Source: Candidatus Iainarchaeum sp. (GTDB taxonomy: Archaea; Micrarchaeota; Micrarchaeia; Anstonellales; Bilamarchaeaceae). Taken from it: a stretch of DNA of 39,329 bases. The DNA lies in the NCBI GenBank assembly GCA_028686985.1, contig JAQUBA010000010.1, forward strand, positions 1 through 39,329. The letters run 5' to 3'. This document shows positions 5,996-21,198 of this stretch, piece after piece. The notes under the pieces are model-generated. The model saw nothing but the letters and a program-made list of their open reading frames with translations, was not told where the DNA came from and did no database searches. Numbering within the stretch: position 1 is the first letter of the stretch; each line of letters begins with the position of its first letter. The translations under genes were made by a program, and so were the position numbers.

Positions 5996-7144
5996 TCAGC
6001 GCGTGAATTCCCTTATGGTCCGCTGCAGCTCATCCGTCGTCCTTCCGTAAGACTCGTAGCTTTTCCATCCCCCTTCCGAGAACTGGTAAAGGTCGTCATC
6101 CGCTATTATGAGGACTATGTCGCCGATGTCCGTGCCGCAAAATTCGTCCCCGTCCCCGCACAGGTTATATTGCGAGCCGATGCTCCCGAGATATTGCCCG
6201 GTCTGCGGCTCAAACGTCTTCGCGCCATCCAGCGCCCGCAGCCCTTCCGCGCCGCCCACCTCGTCCCCGACCGCGACCACGCAGTGGCCCTGGAACTGCG
6301 AGCCCTGGAACCCGGTCACGAAACAAATCACATACGGCGTAAGGTCCTGGATGTTGCCCAGGGATTTCCCTTCCCCCGCGACATACCACATTGTACTTCC
6401 GTCGTCATAAATCACATACGTGCCTGGTTTGGATTCCCACGCCTGGACCTCCATGTCCCTGCCCGTTTGCCGGAAGGTGTTTATGAGCGCCTTCAGGAGG
6501 AGCGAATAATCCTCGCAGTCCCCTCCCCTCTTCCTGGCCATCTCGGATATGGAATAGAGCCTGTCCGGCATTTCGTCCCTATACTCAAACGGGATTTCCC
6601 TCTCCATTATGAAGACTGCGCACCCGAGATTCAGCACCCCGCCGCTCTCGCAGCTGGACCTCACGTCCACGTATATGCGGTTCATGGACACGGGCAGCGC
6701 CGCATTGCCCTTGAACCACTGGATTGAGGAGTCTATGGACTCGCTCAGCTCGCTGATTTCCTCGCCGAGCTGCTCAAACTCTGCCACCGTGCTCTCAAGC
6801 TCGGACTGCGTCGCCTCAAGCTCGCCCTGCGTGAGGTCAAGCGTTGCCATGGTCCTCGCCAGCTCGTGCTGCGTGAAGTTCAGCATGTTCTTCGTCTCGC
6901 TCAGCTCTTCCCGCGTGATTAGCAGGTTGATCCTCGTTTCCTGGAGCTCGCCCTCAAGCCAGTCCACCTGCCGGTTTGCCATCTGCAAATCCACCTTGGT
7001 TTGCCCAAGCTCGCTTTGCGTGGATGAGAGCTGTGATTCCAGCCCCTGGTTCATGTTGAACAGGACTACCGTCGCAACCATGAACACGAAGCAGCCGAAG
7101 GCCCATGCGTATTTGGATTGCATCCGCGAACCCTTCTCCTGCAA
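5996..7144 (-). CDS. membrane-anchored coiled-coil protein with transglutaminase-like domain
   Basis: N-terminal TM, long heptad-like region (LSETKNMLNFTQHELARTMATLDLTQGELEATQSELE), then GGDCEDYSLLLKALI … GHCVVAVGDEV. Confidence 0.75.
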   Translation of the reverse strand: MQEKGSRMQSKYAWAFGCFVFMVATVVLFNMNQGLESQLSSTQSELGQTKVDLQMANRQVDWLEGELQETRINLLITREELSETKNMLNFTQHELARTMATLDLTQGELEATQSELESTVAEFEQLGEEISELSESIDSSIQWFKGNAALPVSMNRIYVDVRSSCESGGVLNLGCAVFIMEREIPFEYRDEMPDRLYSISEMARKRGGDCEDYSLLLKALINTFRQTGRDMEVQAWESKPGTYVIYDDGSTMWYVAGEGKSLGNIQDLTPYVICFVTGFQGSQFQGHCVVAVGDEVGGAEGLRALDGAKTFEPQTGQYLGSIGSQYNLCGDGDEFCGTDIGDIVLIIADDDLYQFSEGGWKSYESYGRTTDELQRTIREFTR

Positions 7145-7238
7145 GGATTAAAAAGAATGTGAAAGCCGCGCATGCCCGCATGAACCGTTCCGGCCCGCTT
7201 CCGCACCATTAATAATTTTTGCAGGGCATCAATCCACC

Positions 7239-7751
7239 ATGCCAGTGAAAAAATTCATAGACAGCAAGGTCGCCTTCATCTCAAGGCAGATTGACGTGGC
7301 GGCCAGCAAAATCCGGATAAACCCTGGAAGTTCCGCCTGCAGGGCGGGGGGGAAGGCCTCCGCAGCCATAACGCTTGAGCTGAAGAAGCCCGTCCGCGCC
7401 CGCTCGCTCTCCGCCCGCATCTATTGCGTTGAGGAGAAGAAGGTGGAGAGCACGAGGGAGATGGTGAGGGACGATTATAGGATGGACAAGGAGCTGGGCG
7501 TGCAGCGCTCCACCCACCTGCGCACCACCACTTCCGTGATGGAGACGGTCGCGTACGCGGAAACGAAGCAGGTCTCAGGGGAAAAGGAATACTGGAGCGG
7601 AAAATACGAGGTGGAATTCTCCATTCCGGATTCCGCACCCCGCAGCCAGCAGTGGAGCGGCGGCCGCAGGGTCACGTGGAGGATGGAGGCCAAGCTGGAC
7701 ATACCCATGTCCATGGACGTTTCCTCGTCCGTGGAGATTGAGGTCTGCTGA
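7239..7751 (+). CDS. hypothetical beta-rich, arrestin/Spo0M-like protein
   Basis: Alternating beta pattern with GGKASAAITLELKKPVRARSLSARIYCVE…YEVEFSIPDSAPRS…WRMEAKLDIPMSMDVSSSVEIEV. Confidence 0.5.
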   Translation: MPVKKFIDSKVAFISRQIDVAASKIRINPGSSACRAGGKASAAITLELKKPVRARSLSARIYCVEEKKVESTREMVRDDYRMDKELGVQRSTHLRTTTSVMETVAYAETKQVSGEKEYWSGKYEVEFSIPDSAPRSQQWSGGRRVTWRMEAKLDIPMSMDVSSSVEIEVC

Positions 7752-7799
7752 ATTTGAGTGGCAAAAAGGTTTAAATAGTGTGTTATATAGTATGTAATT

Positions 7800-8492
7800 A
7801 TGGAAGCGCCTGGAGCCGTGCATGCCCGAACCCCTGCCACCGCCAGGCCGGCTTTCCGGCACCGTGAAACCCAAATCAGCTCTTTCTCTTATGACAGGCG
7901 CGTCGCCGCAGCCTCGTTCGCTGCGCGCATCTTCGGGGCAGTGCCGTGCGAATTCCTGCCTCGCGTAGAAGTTCTCTATTCTCTGCCCAGGGGGGCCCCT
8001 CTCTCCGATGAATTAAAAAATGAAAAAAATCCGGAGGAGGCGTTCAGGAGGAACGGCCCGGTCTCGTGGCAGCACAAGGGCGTGGTATATTTCAACGGAT
8101 GGAAGATGTCCCCGGATGAAAAGAAGAGGGCATCCGCCCTCGTGCATGAGATGGCGCACATCCTGGTTGCGGTCCACGCAGGCAGGAACTGGCAAGTGGT
8201 CCGCGACACGCAGGCATTCATGTGCGCCACGGAAGGGATGGCGACCTTCGCGGAAATTGAAAGCTGCCGCGCTTCGGGAATTGAATGGAAAGGTTTCCCC
8301 GAAGGAACGGGGGAGGAATACATCCTCGGATTCGCATTCTTCAATTCAATATGCAAGGCCGTTGGGGGCGCCGGGGCCGCATTCCACCTCATCACATCCA
8401 ATCTTCCGAAGGATATGGGCGAGATAAGGAATCCGCAGCTCTACCTCGGGCGCGTTGATTCGGAACACGAATCTGCAGATGCAGTCGCCTGA
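7800..8492 (+). CDS. putative HExxH zinc metalloprotease (minigluzincin-like)
   Basis: ASALVHEMAHILVAVHAG … CATEGMATFAEIES (HExxH plus downstream Glu); TATA GGTTTAAATA about 27 nt upstream. Confidence 0.65.
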   Translation: MEAPGAVHARTPATARPAFRHRETQISSFSYDRRVAAASFAARIFGAVPCEFLPRVEVLYSLPRGAPLSDELKNEKNPEEAFRRNGPVSWQHKGVVYFNGWKMSPDEKKRASALVHEMAHILVAVHAGRNWQVVRDTQAFMCATEGMATFAEIESCRASGIEWKGFPEGTGEEYILGFAFFNSICKAVGGAGAAFHLITSNLPKDMGEIRNPQLYLGRVDSEHESADAVA

Positions 8493-12679: not shown

Positions 12680-13007
12680 TTTTCTTCCATTCTTATTCTT
12701 TAAGGTATTTTTCCTTACTAACCCTACCTCCACGATACTTAAAATGCCTAAAAAGTTTTTGAGAAATTCTAGAAATCTCTTGTAAATTGTAATGAGTTAC
12801 CATTACGGTGTGCTTAAACATATGCCAGTTACTGTGCTGGTAAACCAGAGGGGGAGGGAGTATGTTGATTTTGGCCTATTGGTTTCGCGTAGCGCTGTGG
12901 AGCGGGAAATGCGGATGGGGCAATACCGCTTGGACGCGGAAGAGTGCCTGAAAGATAAGAATGCGGGTGGAAAGAGAGGGGGAGAGTATACCGTGTGGAT
13001 GTGTAAC

Positions 13008-14075
13008 TTATGCAGGTTTATTTCTAGGGTGTAATCCTCGGAGGTGTCTTCCAACGGTCGAACTTGCGCAGTCAAATTTTTTTGCGATATCACCATAGGT
13101 TTCTCCCCTTTTCATTAGTTCTATCGCCTCTTTTGTGTGCTCATCAGTCCATTTAAACTTTGATTTTTCTTTTTTCTTAGTAAGCCAAATAGACACAAGC
13201 CCTGTAGCAAGCATCGGCATCATCACAATCAAACTTGAAATAAGATTCATAGTAAACCGCATCGGATCTCTAGCATAACCATATATTACAATAATGATAG
13301 ATATCAGCATAAAAATTCCTAGAACAATCGCCCATAAGCCTGGAATAATAGAATTTAGTATTGCGGACTTAGAATCTTTGATTAGTTGGATTACTCCCAC
13401 AACTAGAAGAGCAAATGTTAGATAGAATAGCAACCAAGTGAGATCTTCTATATTATTCTGTGAGTCAGAATTCGCATTTTGCCATTTTCCCAGTAAATTA
13501 ACGAATTCTTTCTGATACACCGGGGCAGGTTGGATTAATGTAACAAAAGAGCCATCGATTGGGGAGAATCTACTCATGCAATCTTCACTGAATTTAACAA
13601 AAACGACCGATTTATTATCTAATTCAGAAGAAGAATTCAGTTCTATTATTAACTTATAGATTCCAGCTTCATCAAAATCCCAACTGGATGCTTGGGCACC
13701 CAACTGTTTGGATTCTGGGAATATAGAATCACTTGAGCCTAGACTGATATTAATTGTCTTTTGTTGTGAGTTCAGTGTTCTATTAGAAGGCGATATCAAT
13801 GTGACATCAAAAGTATCAAATTTAGTAGAATTAGTAGCATTGTTGAGATTATTGATATAGATCTGATAAGAGAAATAATTGCCTAGATAAGCACCCTGAT
13901 TTTGTTCGGTGATTATATTAACAGAAATCTCATAATATTCATATTGATCTAATAGGAATCTTTCGTTTACTACTGACCTACAAGTATCTGCTCCGTATAT
14001 TGTAGGGAATGAAGCAGAAATCAATGTCAAAAAGAACAGTGCGCTAATAGCAAACCTCATACCATCACAGTCCAA
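13008..14075 (-). CDS. membrane protein: signal peptide, beta-rich ectodomain, about 4 TM helices, C-terminal cytosolic HTH
   Basis: LLFYLTFALLVVGVIQLI…GLWAIVLGIFMLISIIIVIYGYA…LIVMMPMLATGLVSIWL then KWTDEHTKEAIELMKRGETYGDIAKKFDCASSTVGRHLRGLHPR. Confidence 0.75.
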   Translation of the reverse strand: MDCDGMRFAISALFFLTLISASFPTIYGADTCRSVVNERFLLDQYEYYEISVNIITEQNQGAYLGNYFSYQIYINNLNNATNSTKFDTFDVTLISPSNRTLNSQQKTINISLGSSDSIFPESKQLGAQASSWDFDEAGIYKLIIELNSSSELDNKSVVFVKFSEDCMSRFSPIDGSFVTLIQPAPVYQKEFVNLLGKWQNANSDSQNNIEDLTWLLFYLTFALLVVGVIQLIKDSKSAILNSIIPGLWAIVLGIFMLISIIIVIYGYARDPMRFTMNLISSLIVMMPMLATGLVSIWLTKKKEKSKFKWTDEHTKEAIELMKRGETYGDIAKKFDCASSTVGRHLRGLHPRNKPA

Positions 14076-14077
14076 TA

Positions 14078-14998
14078 CTATTTTTGAATTTCTAATATTT
14101 TCTCAGCATCCTTCTGAATGCCGTATTTTTCTAAGAATTCTTCTGCTTGTATCTCCTTGTCCTTTTTGATAACTCTCTTAATTCTCTTCTTAAGTACATC
14201 TTCGATACCATCTTCTTTGCTATGTTTTTCGAAATTTGATTCGGCTTTTGATATTATGTCTAACTTCTCTTTCTCCAACATTTCATAAACAACTTCATTT
14301 ACTTCTAGTTCCCATAAAGCTTTGGCCTCATAGTCCAAACCCAAAAATGCATTTTTAGTTCCAAACCACCATTCATCCCATCTATCGAGTATCTTTAATA
14401 GTCCATAAATGATACAGATTAATGCAAGTAATATGTATACAATGATACTTATGACTGAGGCCTTTCCAGTAATAAAGATATGTACGTTTCGTATGTATGC
14501 GTTTTCGTTTCCATCATTTATGATATAGATCGTATTTATTGAGACGTTAGTAAACCCATAAACAGAATTTTGTGAATCAAATTCTGCTTGAAATCCATTT
14601 GATACTACATTTAGTTGTCCCCCAGTATGTTCTATCCTTATCTGAGTGTCAGGCTCTTCGATATAGTTTGTAACATTTATTCTAATTACGTGGTCGGGAA
14701 GAAGTTGTATGCAGTAATTATCCCCGCATCTAACAAGTTGGTCATCTGTGGACGAACCTACATTAAATGCGATAGTCTCGGTACTAGTTAATCTCAAGTT
14801 AATAATAATTATCATGCCGAAACATAAAACCACTAGGCCCCACGTAATTCTACTTATGTTATGGATATTTTTTCCTATGTAATCACTGACTTTAATCAAG
14901 TTTACTCTTAATGTTCCCCATCGCAGGATTAAATTTAAAAATAAAGACAAAAATCCTACTGTAATAGAAACGGTTTGCAAAATTTCTACATAGTCCAT
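14078..14998 (-). CDS. hypothetical membrane protein with ectodomain and charged cytosolic tail
   Basis: TMs near the N-terminus and at SVISIIVYILLALICIIYGLLKI; stop lies 2 nt before the next gene's start (operon with 13008-14075). Confidence 0.7.
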   Translation of the reverse strand: MDYVEILQTVSITVGFLSLFLNLILRWGTLRVNLIKVSDYIGKNIHNISRITWGLVVLCFGMIIIINLRLTSTETIAFNVGSSTDDQLVRCGDNYCIQLLPDHVIRINVTNYIEEPDTQIRIEHTGGQLNVVSNGFQAEFDSQNSVYGFTNVSINTIYIINDGNENAYIRNVHIFITGKASVISIIVYILLALICIIYGLLKILDRWDEWWFGTKNAFLGLDYEAKALWELEVNEVVYEMLEKEKLDIISKAESNFEKHSKEDGIEDVLKKRIKRVIKKDKEIQAEEFLEKYGIQKDAEKILEIQK

Positions 14999-15002
14999 AA
15001 CC

Positions 15003-15015
15003 TAATACGTTATTA
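15003..15015. promoter_or_regulatory. inverted repeat TAATA-CGT-TATTA in the promoter of the 14998-13008 operon
   Basis: Perfect 5-nt arms, between a minus-strand TATA (CTATTAAAC) and the ATG at 14998. Confidence 0.5.
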
Positions 15016-15097
15016 TGAAGTTTAATAGTTTTTTCGCTTTCAAGAAGTGGAATGGATTGTCTAATTTTACATTAATAATAATCAGCTGGTTAAAATA

Positions 15098-15847
15098 GTG
15101 AAGCATTTTGGTATACGCAAGGATTTAATATACTGTTTGAAAAATGTAGTCATGGTTGCGGAGATGGTACTTCAAGATTTTATTATTTATAGCTCTATTT
15201 TATTTGTCGTAGTTGCAGCCATTGTATACTATTTTGGAAAAATAGCTTCTTACGAATATAGAACAGAGCAGGACAAAACAGAAATTTATATGGAAGGCGT
15301 AATATTCCTAGGCCTGGTAATTATCGGTCCTGCAACAATATTTATTCTCGTAAGTCTATTATCTAACCCCATTTTTGTCACTCCTGAGATTAGCTTTGGC
15401 TTCTTTTTCAGCTTTCTTGTTATTCTATTTGTGGGGTTGCCTATAGTTGCCTGGGATCTATTAGAGATTTTTTATGATACTCATAAAATGCGTGTAGGCT
15501 TACTCAGTAAAATAATCGAAATTGGGTTTCTGCCCAAAGCTATTTTCTTTATTATTCTCGCTGTGTTAATGTTCCTTCCAACACTTTACTGGTTGAGTAT
15601 TGAGCCATCGCTTATGTTAATTTGGTGGTTTGTTTCTTATTTTTTTATTCTAACAGCGATGGCAGGCATATTTGGTAGACTTAGAAGACTAAAGATCAAA
15701 AGTAGTAGAATAAAAACGACTCAACAAGAATTTGAGGGTTATATATTACATGAAACAAACGCCGAGGTAATTCTTAAAACAAAAATGGGAACTAGGATAA
15801 CCCTCCCTAAAAGAGATATAATTCTAATAGAAGACGAACTAATTTGA
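15098..15847 (+). CDS. multi-TM membrane protein with C-terminal small beta (Sm/SH3-like) domain
   Basis: Several TM helices then TTQQEFEGYILHETNAEVILKTKMGTRITLPKRDIILIEDELI; GTG start at 15098, alternative ATG at 15152. Confidence 0.65.
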   Translation: MKHFGIRKDLIYCLKNVVMVAEMVLQDFIIYSSILFVVVAAIVYYFGKIASYEYRTEQDKTEIYMEGVIFLGLVIIGPATIFILVSLLSNPIFVTPEISFGFFFSFLVILFVGLPIVAWDLLEIFYDTHKMRVGLLSKIIEIGFLPKAIFFIILAVLMFLPTLYWLSIEPSLMLIWWFVSYFFILTAMAGIFGRLRRLKIKSSRIKTTQQEFEGYILHETNAEVILKTKMGTRITLPKRDIILIEDELI

Positions 15848-15903
15848 TAAAGCAGTGATTAAAACCCTTGGTTTGTATTATGGTTTTACTAATCAGTTAT
15901 TAA

Positions 15904-16986
15904 TCATTTCTTGCTCTCCGAAGCATTTAGAAGATGCATGAATAGTGTCTTAGTCAGTATAAACAGGTAAGATTCGGTATCATCAATAAATTTAAGCATA
16001 GGTAAATTGAAATTGATACTTGTTCGCTCTAAACACGGCGTACCTTTTTTACCTAGATAATAATTTATGGAAACACCTTCAAATCTTACATCTCGTATAA
16101 TTATCCAAGTATTGTGCATCTTTGGTTTTGGTTCGCATAATTCAAAGGCATCTCTCAAATATTTATATGCCAGACCAAATTTTGTGTTTACCCGTTCATT
16201 TTCAAATGAGATAATTAACTCATTATTCCTTCTAGAAAGTATCCTTTTGGTTGAATGAACTACGGCATGCCGTAGAGAAAGCAAAATATGGCTATCCATA
16301 GTAAGAGTGAGAGAACCTAAGTATCCCGGTTCATTTTCATCCCACTCATCCAACAAATTCTCAAAATTATTCAGCCTAGTTTTTGATCCACTCTTCTGAA
16401 GAAAATACTGAACAATCAAAAGCGCAGTTTCCATTGCAAGTCGAATGTAATTTTCGACTTTGCATTCAATCCAACTATCAAGAAGCTCGATCTTGACAGG
16501 ATCATATCTCTGAACAATATATTCTATTTCTTCGTGGCATTGTATCAAATATATCAGTCTTCGTTTGATCACATCTAACCTTTGTTCATCTTCGGGGAAT
16601 TTTTTCTTTAGTTCTGTTATGAGATAATTGATTGGGCTAAATGATGCACCCATACGCGATTCTAGATGATGGCATGCAAAATTGACTAAGTGACCGTAAT
16701 AGCTATCAAGAGTGCTTCCGTTTCCGATTATGCCTAAATTTTTTATGGTGAGATCAACTCGTTCGTTCAAAGAGATGTTCTCAGGTATGAGGCTTCGTTT
16801 TTTGACTAAATACACTTGATTCCAGAAATGTGCTCTGTTGAAACCTACTTTTTCTTGTAATGCATAAAAGAATTCATTCTCTTTTTTAAGGGCTTCTTTC
16901 AAGTCATTTTCTCTTTTGCCACATAAATTATCTAGTGTTTTCTTAAATGCATAAATGAATTTTGGTAATTTCATTCTACCATCCAA
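15904..16986 (-). CDS. hypothetical alpha-helical protein, possible HEPN-like domain
   Basis: Helical protein with SHILLSLRHAVVHSTKRIL, matching an R-x4-H HEPN-type motif. Confidence 0.55.
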   Translation of the reverse strand: MDGRMKLPKFIYAFKKTLDNLCGKRENDLKEALKKENEFFYALQEKVGFNRAHFWNQVYLVKKRSLIPENISLNERVDLTIKNLGIIGNGSTLDSYYGHLVNFACHHLESRMGASFSPINYLITELKKKFPEDEQRLDVIKRRLIYLIQCHEEIEYIVQRYDPVKIELLDSWIECKVENYIRLAMETALLIVQYFLQKSGSKTRLNNFENLLDEWDENEPGYLGSLTLTMDSHILLSLRHAVVHSTKRILSRRNNELIISFENERVNTKFGLAYKYLRDAFELCEPKPKMHNTWIIIRDVRFEGVSINYYLGKKGTPCLERTSINFNLPMLKFIDDTESYLFILTKTLFMHLLNASESKK

Positions 16987-17039
16987 TGTAAGTTAATACT
17001 CTACTCAAACTATTAAAATCCACTTCTCTTATAACATAT

Positions 17040-17843
17040 ATGAGTTATCCTAACTTACCGGTCTATGATTTGGTGTATAATATGAAACCAGAGAAAAAAA
17101 AGATTGAAGAACCTATCGAAGTAAAAATTGAAAAGCGTATAGTCTATAATTCGAAATTCCTCTTTTTCTTTGAGCCGTCTAATCCAGTCCAAAATGAAAC
17201 CTTCTCTATAGAACTAAAGATAACAAATATGGATAAAAAAAGGACCTTGAGCATTCCTTTATTGCATGTTGATTGTGGTAGCCACGACCGTACTTTCAGT
17301 GACTGGCTAATTCCTTTTAAGAAAGGGCTTAGAAACATACCTCCAAGAGGTTCCATAACACTGGTTACAAAAGAATTCAAGACACCTACGTATGGAGTTC
17401 ACAATATACATGTTATAATATACAAAGAACCAGATCCAAATAGAAGCAGGGCAAATTTAACGTACGTTCTTAATGATAAACCAATTGATTGGTTAGGAAA
17501 TCCGTCAAATGCATGCTGGGCAGATACTTTTTGGGTTGATGGCTATTTCGAGAAAAATCAGATGGAGATGAATTATCTGCTTCTGGGCTTAACATTCATT
17601 TCTATAGCTAGCATCTTCATAGGCATGGTTACATATATCCTACAACAAGTCCCATTGCTTATGGAAAATCCATACTATAAGAGTATGAGTGGTGGATGGC
17701 TTGCAGATTATTTACTGGCAAGAGATGATTCTGAAAGGGTCGCTGCATTGCATGAGTTATTTGATGTGATTAATGGTTGTGGAGCATCGAGAATGATGAA
17801 TGCTAGCATTAATTTAACAGCATGCAATCCATCAACTCCTTGA
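17040..17843 (+). CDS. hypothetical single-TM protein with beta-sandwich-like domain
   Basis: FSIELKITNMDKKRTLSIPLLHVDCG… beta pattern; TM MNYLLLGLTFISIASIFIGMVTYIL. Confidence 0.6.
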   Translation: MSYPNLPVYDLVYNMKPEKKKIEEPIEVKIEKRIVYNSKFLFFFEPSNPVQNETFSIELKITNMDKKRTLSIPLLHVDCGSHDRTFSDWLIPFKKGLRNIPPRGSITLVTKEFKTPTYGVHNIHVIIYKEPDPNRSRANLTYVLNDKPIDWLGNPSNACWADTFWVDGYFEKNQMEMNYLLLGLTFISIASIFIGMVTYILQQVPLLMENPYYKSMSGGWLADYLLARDDSERVAALHELFDVINGCGASRMMNASINLTACNPSTP

Positions 17844-17874
17844 TTTATTCCAATACTATGTTTTCTTTAGTCTA

Positions 17875-18117
17875 TTAAGACCATCGACAGATTAGCCATT
17901 GTATAAGACTGCTCACTATTGGAATAACCATGATAATGGTTAGAACTACTAACACTACAGTAAGCCAAAACATTCTATTTCCTAAGACCGAACTTTCCTG
18001 CTTGAGCAATACGATTTCTTCTCTAAGCTTGCGATTCTCTTCCGTTAGCATTTTTATTGAATCGGATATGTGTTGAGTCCCGCTTCGAGTCCCAACAAGT
18101 GTATCTGTCAGTGACAT
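17875..18117 (-). CDS. small coiled-coil plus TM protein
   Basis: IKMLTEENRKLREEIVLLKQESSVLGNR coiled coil; FWLTVVLVVLTIIMVIPIVSSLI TM. Confidence 0.55.
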   Translation of the reverse strand: MSLTDTLVGTRSGTQHISDSIKMLTEENRKLREEIVLLKQESSVLGNRMFWLTVVLVVLTIIMVIPIVSSLIQWLICRWS

Positions 18118-18178
18118 GCTGTTAACCTAAGTACATAACATCCAATAAGAATTAAAGGTTGTGCAAAAATATCTGTGC

Positions 18179-18249
18179 ATATCAATCACCCTAATCTTCT
18201 ACGGCGGCGCCCAAGTTGTCCTATGCACCACATATTTCACGATGTGATT
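18179..18249 (+). pseudogene. possible fossil 5' end of the RNase J-like beta-CASP gene
   Basis: ATATCAATCACCCTAATCTTCTACGGCGGCGCC translates I-S-I-T-L-I-F-Y-G-G-A and aligns without gaps (25/33 nt) to 19834-19866 (M-S-L-S-L-T-F-Y-G-G-A); frame closes at TGA. Confidence 0.5.
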
Positions 18250-18281
18250 AATACTCGAAGGCCAATAATTAACATTTAAAT

Positions 18282-18294
18282 AGAGTAATACTCT
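18282..18294. promoter_or_regulatory. palindrome AGAGT-AAT-ACTCT between TATA and ATG of the Ntn-hydrolase gene
   Basis: Perfect 5-nt arms; TATA ATTTAAATA at about 18274-18282; ATG at 18307. Confidence 0.55.
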
Positions 18295-18306
18295 AAATGA
18301 CCTAGG

Positions 18307-19587
18307 ATGACTGCAGAAATTGCAATAATGAACCATGAGGCAGTTGCACTTGCTGCAGACAGTGCAGTGACTTTGAGTGAAGGTAAAATATTTCCCTCAG
18401 CCAACAAAATTTTTGCATTAACAAAATGTGCGCCAGTTGGGATTATGTTATATCAAAACCCTTCCTTGACAAAGATTCCTCTTGAAACACTTATCAAAAC
18501 GTATCGAAAGAGATTAGGCAAAAAGAGATTTAATAAGTTGGATGATTATGCTTCTGATTTTTTAAAATTTTTAGGCAAGGAAACTAGGCATATTCCGGAA
18601 AAAGAACAAAAACAATTTTTTGTTTATGGTGTTCATTTTTTCTTTCACAAGTTAAGGGGCGATATAAAAGAAAGATTGGTAGATGAGTTATCTAACAAAA
18701 AAACAATTACATACAATGATATAGTAAAAATTTTTGTGGATGCTATTAATCAGGAACATAAAAGTTTCAGCAAATTGAAATCATCGAAATCGATCATTAG
18801 AGAGAAATATCTTTTTTATAAGAATAGGAACATTATAAGAAATATTCGTGACAAATTCTTTGGTAAAGCGAAGTTCTTACCAAAGCACGTTTGCAATAAG
18901 TTGGATGAGATGGGCTTACAAATATTTACTAGAAATAATGTTGTAACCCCATTCCATACGGGAATAGTTATCGCTGGTTTCGGAGAAAAAGAAGTGATGC
19001 CTGCCCTGACACAAATTATTGTAGATGGTGTTTTTGATAATAAAATAATTATAAGACACAGAGGTTCTGAATCCATCGATTTTGATGCGGGTGCGACAGT
19101 AATGGCGTTTGCACAAAAGGAGATGGTAACTAGATTTATGGATGGAATAGATCCTGAATTCAATGCGGATATTGATAAATTCATTTGGGACCTACTCATA
19201 AATTACCCAAGTGTGATATTAGATAATATACCCCGCTTGAATCAGAGACAGAAAATGTTGCTATTAAAAAAGACTAGAAAATTAGCTCCTGAGATCCTAA
19301 AAAAGTATCGAGCTAATCTAAAAGATTATAAAAGAAACAAATTCAGCGAACAAATAACCGAAATCGTATTGAATATGCCAAAGGCAGAACTTGCTGCCGC
19401 AGCAGAGTCCCTTGTTAGCTTAACTTCATTCAAGAGAAAGATTTCTAAACAAAGGGAGAGTGTTGGTGGACCAATTGATGTTGCTGTAATCTCAAAGGGA
19501 GATGGATTTGTTTGGATTAAGAAAAAACAATACTTCAAACAAGAATTAAATCCGGCTTTCATATTAAACTATAGTGGGGGCGATTAA
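18307..19587 (+). CDS. proteasome beta-like Ntn-hydrolase family protein with large helical insertion
   Basis: M-TAEIAIMNHEAVALAADSAVTLSEGKIFPSANKIFAL: after Met removal Thr1, Asp17 and Lys33 match canonical proteasome numbering; C-terminal ESVGGPIDVAVISKGDGFVWI is beta-subunit-like. Confidence 0.75.
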   Translation: MTAEIAIMNHEAVALAADSAVTLSEGKIFPSANKIFALTKCAPVGIMLYQNPSLTKIPLETLIKTYRKRLGKKRFNKLDDYASDFLKFLGKETRHIPEKEQKQFFVYGVHFFFHKLRGDIKERLVDELSNKKTITYNDIVKIFVDAINQEHKSFSKLKSSKSIIREKYLFYKNRNIIRNIRDKFFGKAKFLPKHVCNKLDEMGLQIFTRNNVVTPFHTGIVIAGFGEKEVMPALTQIIVDGVFDNKIIIRHRGSESIDFDAGATVMAFAQKEMVTRFMDGIDPEFNADIDKFIWDLLINYPSVILDNIPRLNQRQKMLLLKKTRKLAPEILKKYRANLKDYKRNKFSEQITEIVLNMPKAELAAAAESLVSLTSFKRKISKQRESVGGPIDVAVISKGDGFVWIKKKQYFKQELNPAFILNYSGGD

Positions 19588-19588
19588 A

Positions 19589-19738
19589 ATGAGGGATAGT
19601 GCTAAAACTAAGAAGTATACATGTATAAAAGACATTGAGAGAGATTTTTTTCCACATAGTGAAGATTTAATTAATAAAAAAGAAAAGTCATACACATTAG
19701 ATGAAGATATTTTCGAAATATTGCGAAAAAAATTATAG
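19589..19738 (+). CDS. 49-aa conserved-looking partner ORF of the Ntn-hydrolase
   Basis: Read from sequence: MRDSAKTKKYTCIKDIERDFFPHSEDLINKKEKSYTLDEDIFEILRKKL*; starts 1 nt after the stop of the Ntn gene. Confidence 0.65.
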   Translation: MRDSAKTKKYTCIKDIERDFFPHSEDLINKKEKSYTLDEDIFEILRKKL

Positions 19739-19833
19739 GATAGATAGCTATATTGACTTTTAACGGTTTTACCTAGCGAACAGATTGAGAATCATACTAA
19801 AACTATAAAAAATTATTTATGCCAATTATTTCC

Positions 19834-21198
19834 ATGTCACTTTCCTTAACTTTCTATGGCGGCGCCGGAGAAATCGGCGGTAACAAAATCCTCCTCCAGG
19901 AAAAAGGTGCCAAAATCTACCTGGATTTCGGCGAAGAGTTCAACTTCGGGGAAGAATACTTTTGGGAATACCTCCAGCCGAGGAGCGCGAACGGGCTGGA
20001 GGTGTATTTTGAGTTTGGGCTGGTCCCGCAGGTGCCAAAACTCTATTCCAAGAGGATGCTGGAGAGGACCAAGCTGAAATACCGGAAGCCGGACGTGGAC
20101 GGCGTCCTCATATCCCACATCCATTCCGACCATACCGGCCACCTGCCCTTCCTGGACGAGGGCATACCCATACACATGGGCCACGGGACGCACAAGATAG
20201 CGGAGATATACAGGAAGCTCTACCCCTCCTTCTTCACCCTGGGGGAGCACGAATCCATAAGGCACTTCAGGTCCGGGGAGAGGTTCGGGATAAGGCACCT
20301 GGAGGTGGAGCCGGTCCACGTGGAGCATTCGGTCCCCGGGGCCTACGGGTTCGTGATAGGGGCGGGCAGGGGGAACATCGCATACACGGGCGATTTCAGG
20401 ATGCACGGCCCCAGGAGGGACATGAGCGAGGAGTTCGTGAGGAAGGCGGCGGACGCGCAGCCGGTGGCGCTCCTCTGCGAAGGGACGAGGATGGAAAGCG
20501 AGGAGGGGGCGCACAACTATACCGAGGAGGAGGTGGAGGGGAAGGTCTCGGAAATAATCTCCAAATCAAGGGGGATGGTGTTCGGGTACTTCTCAATGAG
20601 CAACATGGACAGGTTCATGAGCTTCTACAGGGCGGCGAAGGAGAACGGGAGGAGGCTGGCGATAGGCACCCGGCTCGCCTATATGGTGAAGGAGATGAGG
20701 GAGAAGGTGCCGGTGCTGCCGGACGTGGCGAAGGACGGGAACATAGCGGTCTATTTCAGGCTGAACAAGAGCTGCAGGTTCTGCGAGAAGGATTACAAGC
20801 CCTGGGAGAGGGAATTCATGGGAAATATGGCCACTTATGAAGAAATGGCGAAGAATCCGAAAGGATATGTGTTGCACCTGAACTTCAACCAGTTGATAGA
20901 ATTGGTCTACCTCCAGCCCAAGAAGGCGGATTTCATCTATTCCTCGTCCGAGCACTTCCTGGAGGGGGAGGGGAATGAGGAGGAAAAGAAGAGGTGGGAG
21001 GCGTGGATGGGGCATTTCGGGATTAAGTTCCACAAGGCGCACTGCTCAGGGCATGCGTCAAGGGAGGATTTGCAGAGGGTAATAGAGGAAATCAATCCGG
21101 AGATATTGATTCCGGTGCATACTTCTAAACCGGAGGAATTCAGGAAATTCCACAGGAATGTAAAAATACCGGAGAAAGGGAAGACGATGAAGATTTGA
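19834..21198 (+). CDS. RNase J-like metallo-beta-lactamase/beta-CASP ribonuclease
   Basis: LTFYGGAGEIGGNKILLQ … LISHIHSDHTGHLPFL … EHSVPGAYGFVI … IAYTGDFRMHG … HCSGHASREDL … EILIPVHTSKPE. Confidence 0.88.
   Translation: MSLSLTFYGGAGEIGGNKILLQEKGAKIYLDFGEEFNFGEEYFWEYLQPRSANGLEVYFEFGLVPQVPKLYSKRMLERTKLKYRKPDVDGVLISHIHSDHTGHLPFLDEGIPIHMGHGTHKIAEIYRKLYPSFFTLGEHESIRHFRSGERFGIRHLEVEPVHVEHSVPGAYGFVIGAGRGNIAYTGDFRMHGPRRDMSEEFVRKAADAQPVALLCEGTRMESEEGAHNYTEEEVEGKVSEIISKSRGMVFGYFSMSNMDRFMSFYRAAKENGRRLAIGTRLAYMVKEMREKVPVLPDVAKDGNIAVYFRLNKSCRFCEKDYKPWEREFMGNMATYEEMAKNPKGYVLHLNFNQLIELVYLQPKKADFIYSSSEHFLEGEGNEEEKKRWEAWMGHFGIKFHKAHCSGHASREDLQRVIEEINPEILIPVHTSKPEEFRKFHRNVKIPEKGKTMKI

Follow-up and report, generated by a model that had tools for sequence, protein, structure and literature searches.

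A proteasome-like threonine hydrolase and a tiny partner gene form a mobile two-gene unit with a possible antiviral role

The DNA analysed here (the window: 39,329 nucleotides of contig JAQUBA010000010.1 from Candidatus Iainarchaeum sp.) encodes a 426-residue protein with the predicted fold and active site of a proteasome-type Ntn-hydrolase, and this gene opens a conserved two-gene unit. Relatives of the enzyme are found in archaea, bacteria, phages, satellites and plasmids. We favour, at about even chances, a cargo module in which a Thr-protease is regulated or targeted by its tiny partner, probably against phages. The protease family itself was already known; what is new here is the two-gene, prophage-cargo view. 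With the tiny partner, the cargo position in E. coli and the spread from archaea to satellites, an orphan enzyme becomes a testable two-gene module.

Results

The window protein carries a proteasome-type active site without a propeptide

18307-19587, plus strand: gene for a proteasome-beta-like Ntn-hydrolase of 426 amino acids (PMI-4-like; PHROG 5990), with T1, D17 and K33 once Met is removed

An earlier note, made from the DNA letters alone, had described the product of this ORF as proteasome-beta-like. The terminal sequences it quoted were found in the ORF, which begins with MTAEIAIMNHEAVALAADSAVTLSEGKIFPSANKIFAL and carries ESVGGPIDVAVISKGDGFVWI close to its C-terminus. The claim that Thr, Asp and Lys lie in register with the T1/D17/K33 active site was checked in 172 relatives. 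These were gathered by C-terminal peptide patterns and are thus independent of the N-terminus, so that N-terminal conservation was not selected for. T1 was present in 168/168, D17 in 168/169 and K33 in 171/171, confirming the register. Only about 5% of alignment columns are at least 99% identical, indicating that conservation of the three residues exceeds chance. The exact D17-K33 spacing that the note had stressed holds for the window protein and some members; many relatives have extra loop residues between the two positions, both of which are conserved despite this.

Wherever the N-terminus is intact, the start codon (147 ATG, 10 GTG and 10 TTG) is followed immediately by that of Thr, and a propeptide is thus absent from all these members, as had been proposed for the window protein. 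Thr2 behind Met is a good methionine-aminopeptidase context. The nucleophile should therefore be exposed without autoprocessing, unlike that of proteasome beta subunits.

No recognised match to the protein was found in Pfam, NCBIfam or PADLOC, and the Pfam proteasome profile PF00227 did not match it even at E<=10. Squalene-synthase and DUF2420 profile scores were rejected as noise; profile matches to cullin-3 and apolipoprotein, which arise from the helical insertion, were rejected too. A single-sequence search of PDB chains gave a marginal match to the C-terminal strand motif of the Thermoplasma acidophilum (T. acidophilum) proteasome beta subunit (QRESVGGPIDVAVISKGDGFV, E ~0.3), and profile searches matched T. 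acidophilum beta only locally and weakly (E 0.01-0.02). The earlier reader had thus spotted what standard annotation misses.

Structure prediction was a check that the earlier note had suggested. AlphaFold2, run on a 70-row alignment of the window protein and fetched loci, produced a model with a mean pLDDT of 92.6 and a pTM of 0.88, in which the sandwiched alpha-beta-beta-alpha fold is present. All 13 Foldseek matches in the PDB at E<=1e-3 were proteasome subunits (mostly beta) or Anbu, the top matches being proteasome beta and Anbu (best E 2.7e-4, probability 1.00). Model, Foldseek matches and conserved active site all agree with a proteasome-type Ntn fold. The fold and active site are secure, and we are almost certain that the protein is an Ntn-hydrolase.

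The model shows two helical inserts in addition to the core strands and helices. The earlier note was right about a long helical insertion but had counted one; the first of the two follows H1 (residues ~78-208) and the second separates H3 from H4 (~283-355). They probably block the usual stacking into rings or change how the rings assemble. Insertions at H1/H2 and H3/H4 are expected to interfere with such stacking (PMC8665760).

The family fits PMI-4 and is not the housekeeping proteasome

Fuchs, Alva and Lupas defined 22 new proteasome-like families in 2021 (PMC8665760). One of them, PMI-4 (Proteasome homolog with Multiple Insertions 4; reference HDY66466.1 / KEGG OC.661505-661513), is of unknown function and, with 501 sequences at 90% identity in 2021, was among the largest uncharacterised families of proteasome homologues (PMC8665760). 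It occurs in all major bacterial phyla, Euryarchaeota and phages, lacks a propeptide, and has two insertions, a long one at the H1/H2 site and a second between H3 and H4 (PMC8665760). Only PMI-3 and PMI-4 combine the two, and PMI-3 is missing from most phyla and from phages (PMC8665760, Table 1). The 2021 families were likewise detected only below normal significance, and their definition does not require a PF00227 match (PMC8665760).

The model helices at 78-208 and 283-355 correspond to the two PMI-4 insertions, and the relatives found in phages, plasmids, GTDB-species genomes and IMG/VR agree with its distribution. The window family thus matches PMI-4 by architecture and distribution rather than by direct comparison of sequences; the two share the proteasome fold, Thr1/Asp17/Lys33, the missing propeptide, both insertions, a wide distribution and their uncharacterised status. 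The earlier note had proposed a distinct family, which in the sense of an undescribed one did not hold, as the features fit a published family (PMC8665760). The authors of PMI-4 reported no genomic context that hints at function (PMC8665760), whereas here a tiny partner gene and prophage and satellite cargo sites were found.

Each of the 12 members tested, from phages, plasmids and archaea, matched PHROG 5990, which is labelled 'unknown function', and the window protein matched it over its full length (E=5e-102). PHROGs are derived solely from viruses of bacteria and archaea.

The protein shares with 20S beta, HslV and Anbu the Ntn fold, T1-D17-K33 and the C-terminal strand motif GG.IDVAVI. 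By contrast with these, it is twice as long, has two helical insertions, no propeptide and no PF00227 match, and neither an alpha subunit nor an AAA+ partner was seen in protease neighbourhoods. A housekeeping 20S beta subunit has a propeptide, ~200 amino acids and a partner alpha subunit; the window protein has 426 amino acids and no propeptide. The window genome encodes a separate PF00227 proteasome alpha subunit on another contig (C8:27623-28171, locus L174), in line with the earlier view that this is not the housekeeping proteasome. Connectase is likewise a proteasome homologue without ring assembly and outside the degradation pathway, but differs in having its insertion at S3/S4, in lacking H1-H2 and in being a ligase of methanogens (PMC8665760).

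The alpha subunit was the only PF00227 match in the window genome, and most relatives have two, a difference probably due to incompleteness. A substitution of the protease for an absent proteasome beta subunit was considered but found no support, given an assembly completeness of 85% and the single match seen in several relatives too.

A tiny gene follows the protease gene

19589-19738, plus strand: tiny partner gene, 49 amino acids (MRDSAKTKKYTCIKDIERDFFPHSEDLINKKEKSYTLDEDIFEILRKKL), FFP-motif family, identified with an HMM built without the window

Although the protease had been thought self-standing, its gene opens a conserved two-gene unit with the partner gene listed above. When conservation of the neighbourhood was checked, as the earlier note had advised, a co-directional ORF of 40-95 amino acids starting at most 45 nt from the protease stop was present in 118 of 125 non-redundant loci, compared with 267 of 898 control genes (Fisher p ~1e-46). 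The remaining 7 of the 125 loci have no detectable partner. Clustering of neighbours yielded one widely recurrent family, always at position +1 of the protease. The partner HMM matched in 66 of 165 loci and hit no ORF elsewhere in any locus; when built without the window, it found the window partner as the sole match among 853 window frames (E=9e-6). The sequence GTGGGGG at 19574-19580 is a possible ribosome-binding site of the partner gene, and an alternative in-frame start is possible at the GTG at 19574.

Of 124 partners, 71 group by similarity into one family with the consensus Y.S..EFEK.FFP.S...LA.ESL.KI..L. Others belong to smaller families from phages of enterobacteria, firmicutes and proteobacteria, and several of the partner sequence types have no demonstrable homology to each other. 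Shuffling would give an FFP-like short motif in 4.7 of 124 partners, whereas 68 have one; this figure is descriptive, as the motif list was post hoc. Predicted alone, the partner forms short helices at low confidence (pLDDT 72.5, pTM 0.32), which would be compatible with a peptide that folds upon binding. Very probably the partner is functionally tied to the enzyme. That it is an inhibitor rather than an adaptor or substrate has, in our estimate, somewhat less than an even chance. A role as a Pup-like tag was rejected, the C-terminus not being conserved.

The protease gene is patchily distributed and mobile

By tblastn, full-length relatives at ~30% identity were found in 10 plasmids and 13 genomes of phages or satellites; almost all of them bear the annotation 'hypothetical protein'. 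Among GTDB-species genomes, scans combining peptide patterns and tblastn gave 476 relatives, and IMG/VR contigs yielded 168; 80 of each were fetched for study. The gene is present in 2 of 295 genomes of the window's phylum and in 1 of 40 close relatives, and archaeal and bacterial members are intermixed in the tree (12 changes). The distribution is patchy and horizontal.

Several placements in phages look like cargo. The gene adjoins holin/lysozyme in a Stenotrophomonas phage, lies between DNA methylase and holin in a Providencia phage, sits at the right-hand end in streptococcal satellites and in Javan85, and is antisense to tail genes in a Pantoea phage. In a Porphyromonas phage it is within the structural module. 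Genes on the opposite strand flank it on both sides in 15 of 44 viral loci, compared with 10% of controls (p=6e-5).

In the window, the pair lies at the end of a low-GC island, in support of the accessory island that the earlier note had proposed.

12700-19800, no strand: low-GC accessory island, ~34% G+C against ~55-60% in the flanks (G+C profile, Pfam scan)
18275-18282, plus strand: TTTAAATA, archaeal TATA-box-like, 25 nt before the ATG (read by eye)
18282-18294, no strand: perfect 13-bp inverted repeat AGAGTA-A-TACTCT (AGAGTAATACTCT) between the TATA-like box and the start codon

The position of the TATA-like box would fit a leaderless transcript, and the inverted repeat is a possible operator. 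The other island ORFs, at 13008-17843, encode 355, 306, 249, 360 and 267 amino acids, several with apparent transmembrane segments. They gave no confident match in Pfam or PADLOC, no integrase was recognised among them and no convincing direct repeats flank the island. A weak similarity of 18132-18211 to the start of the downstream metallo-beta-lactamase (MBL) gene was considered as an insertion scar but dropped, being equalled by 3 of 300 shuffles. That MBL (RNase J-like) gene, at 19819-21198, is fragmented in congeners (L194, L195, L196), where several tandem 3'-end fragments are interspersed with inserts (schlafen/AlbA-like protein, ATPase, HAD-like). The locus is thus plastic within the genus.

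The pair occupies variable cargo sites in E. coli prophages

Among 5,426 E. coli genomes, 9 have a copy with at least 80% query coverage and others a divergent copy. Of the 207 genomes with any match, most share just the ~60 bp preceding the gene. In lambdoid prophages of E. coli the pair lies between DNA-methyltransferase/lysis genes and the antiterminator Q, antisense to both. In L178, the protease gene spans 7102-8385 and its partner ORF encodes 49 amino acids. A leader of ~50-60 bp (GTGGCGAAGTAACCACTCTTAACAGATTA...TTGCGTACGCGTTA) precedes variable genes at this slot, whose occupants we describe from a few hand-picked examples (L178, L179, L180, L182, L184, L185, L186, L187, L188). In one prophage the same leader is followed by a KAP NTPase that matches candidate defence family PDC-S20 (E=1e-175). 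In another it precedes DUF262 and a HEPN nuclease, the DUF262 protein matching NsnA (5e-45) and PD-T4-2_A (6e-27), and in another hypothetical genes and an MBL protein with weak LmuA/RTasMBL similarity. Further prophages carry unnamed two-gene operons and, in one case, a porin. Slot position alone does not prove defence because this non-defence porin sits there too. Several occupants of two or three genes matched nothing in PADLOC and are candidates for defence genes not yet described.

A Rac-type prophage of strain TD225-C4 has the protease gene between racR and kilR, 46 bp downstream of the racR-like regulator. In K-12 this interval holds ydaG, ydaF and the superinfection-exclusion gene sieB, from which the protease gene differs in orientation. 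Expression in the lysogen would be in keeping with both the Q-proximal and the racR-kilR position. The variable-slot cargo position expected of a defence system was thus found both in the Q-proximal slot and in the sieB interval of Rac. Known prophage cargo defence genes (P2/P4 hotspots, PMC9122126; SieB of Rac) similarly occupy variable slots of temperate phages and are often transcribed separately from the lytic operon. The main text of PMC9122126 reports no proteasome homologue ('proteas' occurs 0 times), and no anti-phage proteasome homologue or follow-up study of PMI-4 was found in the literature searched.

Among archaeal and uncultured-bacterial relatives closest to the window, Pfam neighbours were mostly diverse housekeeping genes. 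PADLOC families showed no clear difference between near and far neighbours of archaeal and MAG members, many MAG ORFs in this comparison being crudely called (longest-ORF). No PADLOC model matches the protease family itself.

Discussion

The earlier note had suggested a defence or signalling protease. The E. coli cargo sites make defence plausible. We consider a role against viruses or competing mobile elements to be evenly balanced. On this reading, the first gene would encode a Thr1-nucleophile, proteasome-beta-like amide hydrolase of PMI-4 type, whose nucleophile would be exposed by Met removal alone. The second gene, translated immediately after the first, would yield a tiny basic protein that is largely unfolded; its FFP-type motif and amphipathic C-terminal helix would most likely bind the enzyme or deliver a substrate to it. 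The pair would be exchanged among phages, satellites, plasmids and cellular lineages as an accessory unit, and its most likely job would be to interfere with competing viruses. The partner may restrain or aim the protease, which upon infection would cleave a phage or host protein, leading to superinfection exclusion or abortive infection. We infer that the enzyme is a monomer or small oligomer, with access controlled by the partner, that is used against viruses.

If defence is its role, antiviral immunity in prokaryotes would have adopted the proteasome fold separately from the ubiquitin pathway. More tentatively, the pairs may form a new antiviral class in archaea, bacteria, phages and satellites, built on a partner-controlled proteasome-type protease that infection releases; we think this possible, with the balance against it. 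It is highly improbable that the rhizobial pair and a nearby multiubiquitin-E2/E1-JAB operon form a minimal ubiquitin-proteasome-like immune circuit.

Several observations would also suit a toxin-antitoxin-like module for addiction or abortive infection, in which the protease is toxic through cleavage of host proteins and the partner is its specific inhibitor. The genes overlap or abut, the partner is tiny, basic and fast-diverging, and the pair is a solitary insertion at unrelated sites, carried by phages and plasmids. However, the protease gene comes before the partner gene, the reverse of many type II toxin-antitoxin operons, and the loci lacking a detectable partner also argue against this module, which we regard as rather unlikely. 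The short, flexible partner with its conserved FFP core could instead be a dedicated substrate, cut or joined to a target by a transacylase or ligase, and connectase, itself a proteasome homologue, is a sequence-specific ligase (PMC8665760). Such a protein-modification system is improbable, as the partner alignment has no conserved tag-like end at either terminus and the central motif alone is conserved.

Members of the proteasome family generally degrade proteins, and many archaeal and MAG pairs lie among housekeeping genes without defence neighbours, as would be expected of a housekeeping or stress quality-control protease whose carriage by phages is incidental. We give this a low probability, given the rarity of the gene in the window's phylum and among its close relatives, the presence of the pair in prophage cargo sites and satellites, and the lack of any AAA+ unfoldase partner in the loci seen. 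A benefit to the phage's own life cycle, such as prohead or antirepressor processing, would be consistent with the copy inside the Porphyromonas structural module and with PPH and AAH, proteasome homologues that are also phage genes (PMC8665760). The gene is, however, antisense to late genes in the E. coli, Stenotrophomonas and Pantoea phage loci and is carried too by satellites, plasmids and archaea without phage genes, which makes this reading very improbable. The antiviral cargo module remains our preferred explanation.

Multiubiquitin operons were also seen near the protease gene in four loci (L008 4733-9437, L010 8001-14210, L012 8001-14203 and L093 5224-11356), as a multiubiquitin-E2 / ThiF(E1)(-JAB) / DUF6527 operon ~0.5-4 kb away. 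The association spans two unrelated rhizobial plasmid lineages and one Rhodocyclaceae chromosome. The operon is present on 5 of 10 protease-bearing plasmids, compared with ~152 of 72,556 plasmids that encode the multiubiquitin-E2 protein.
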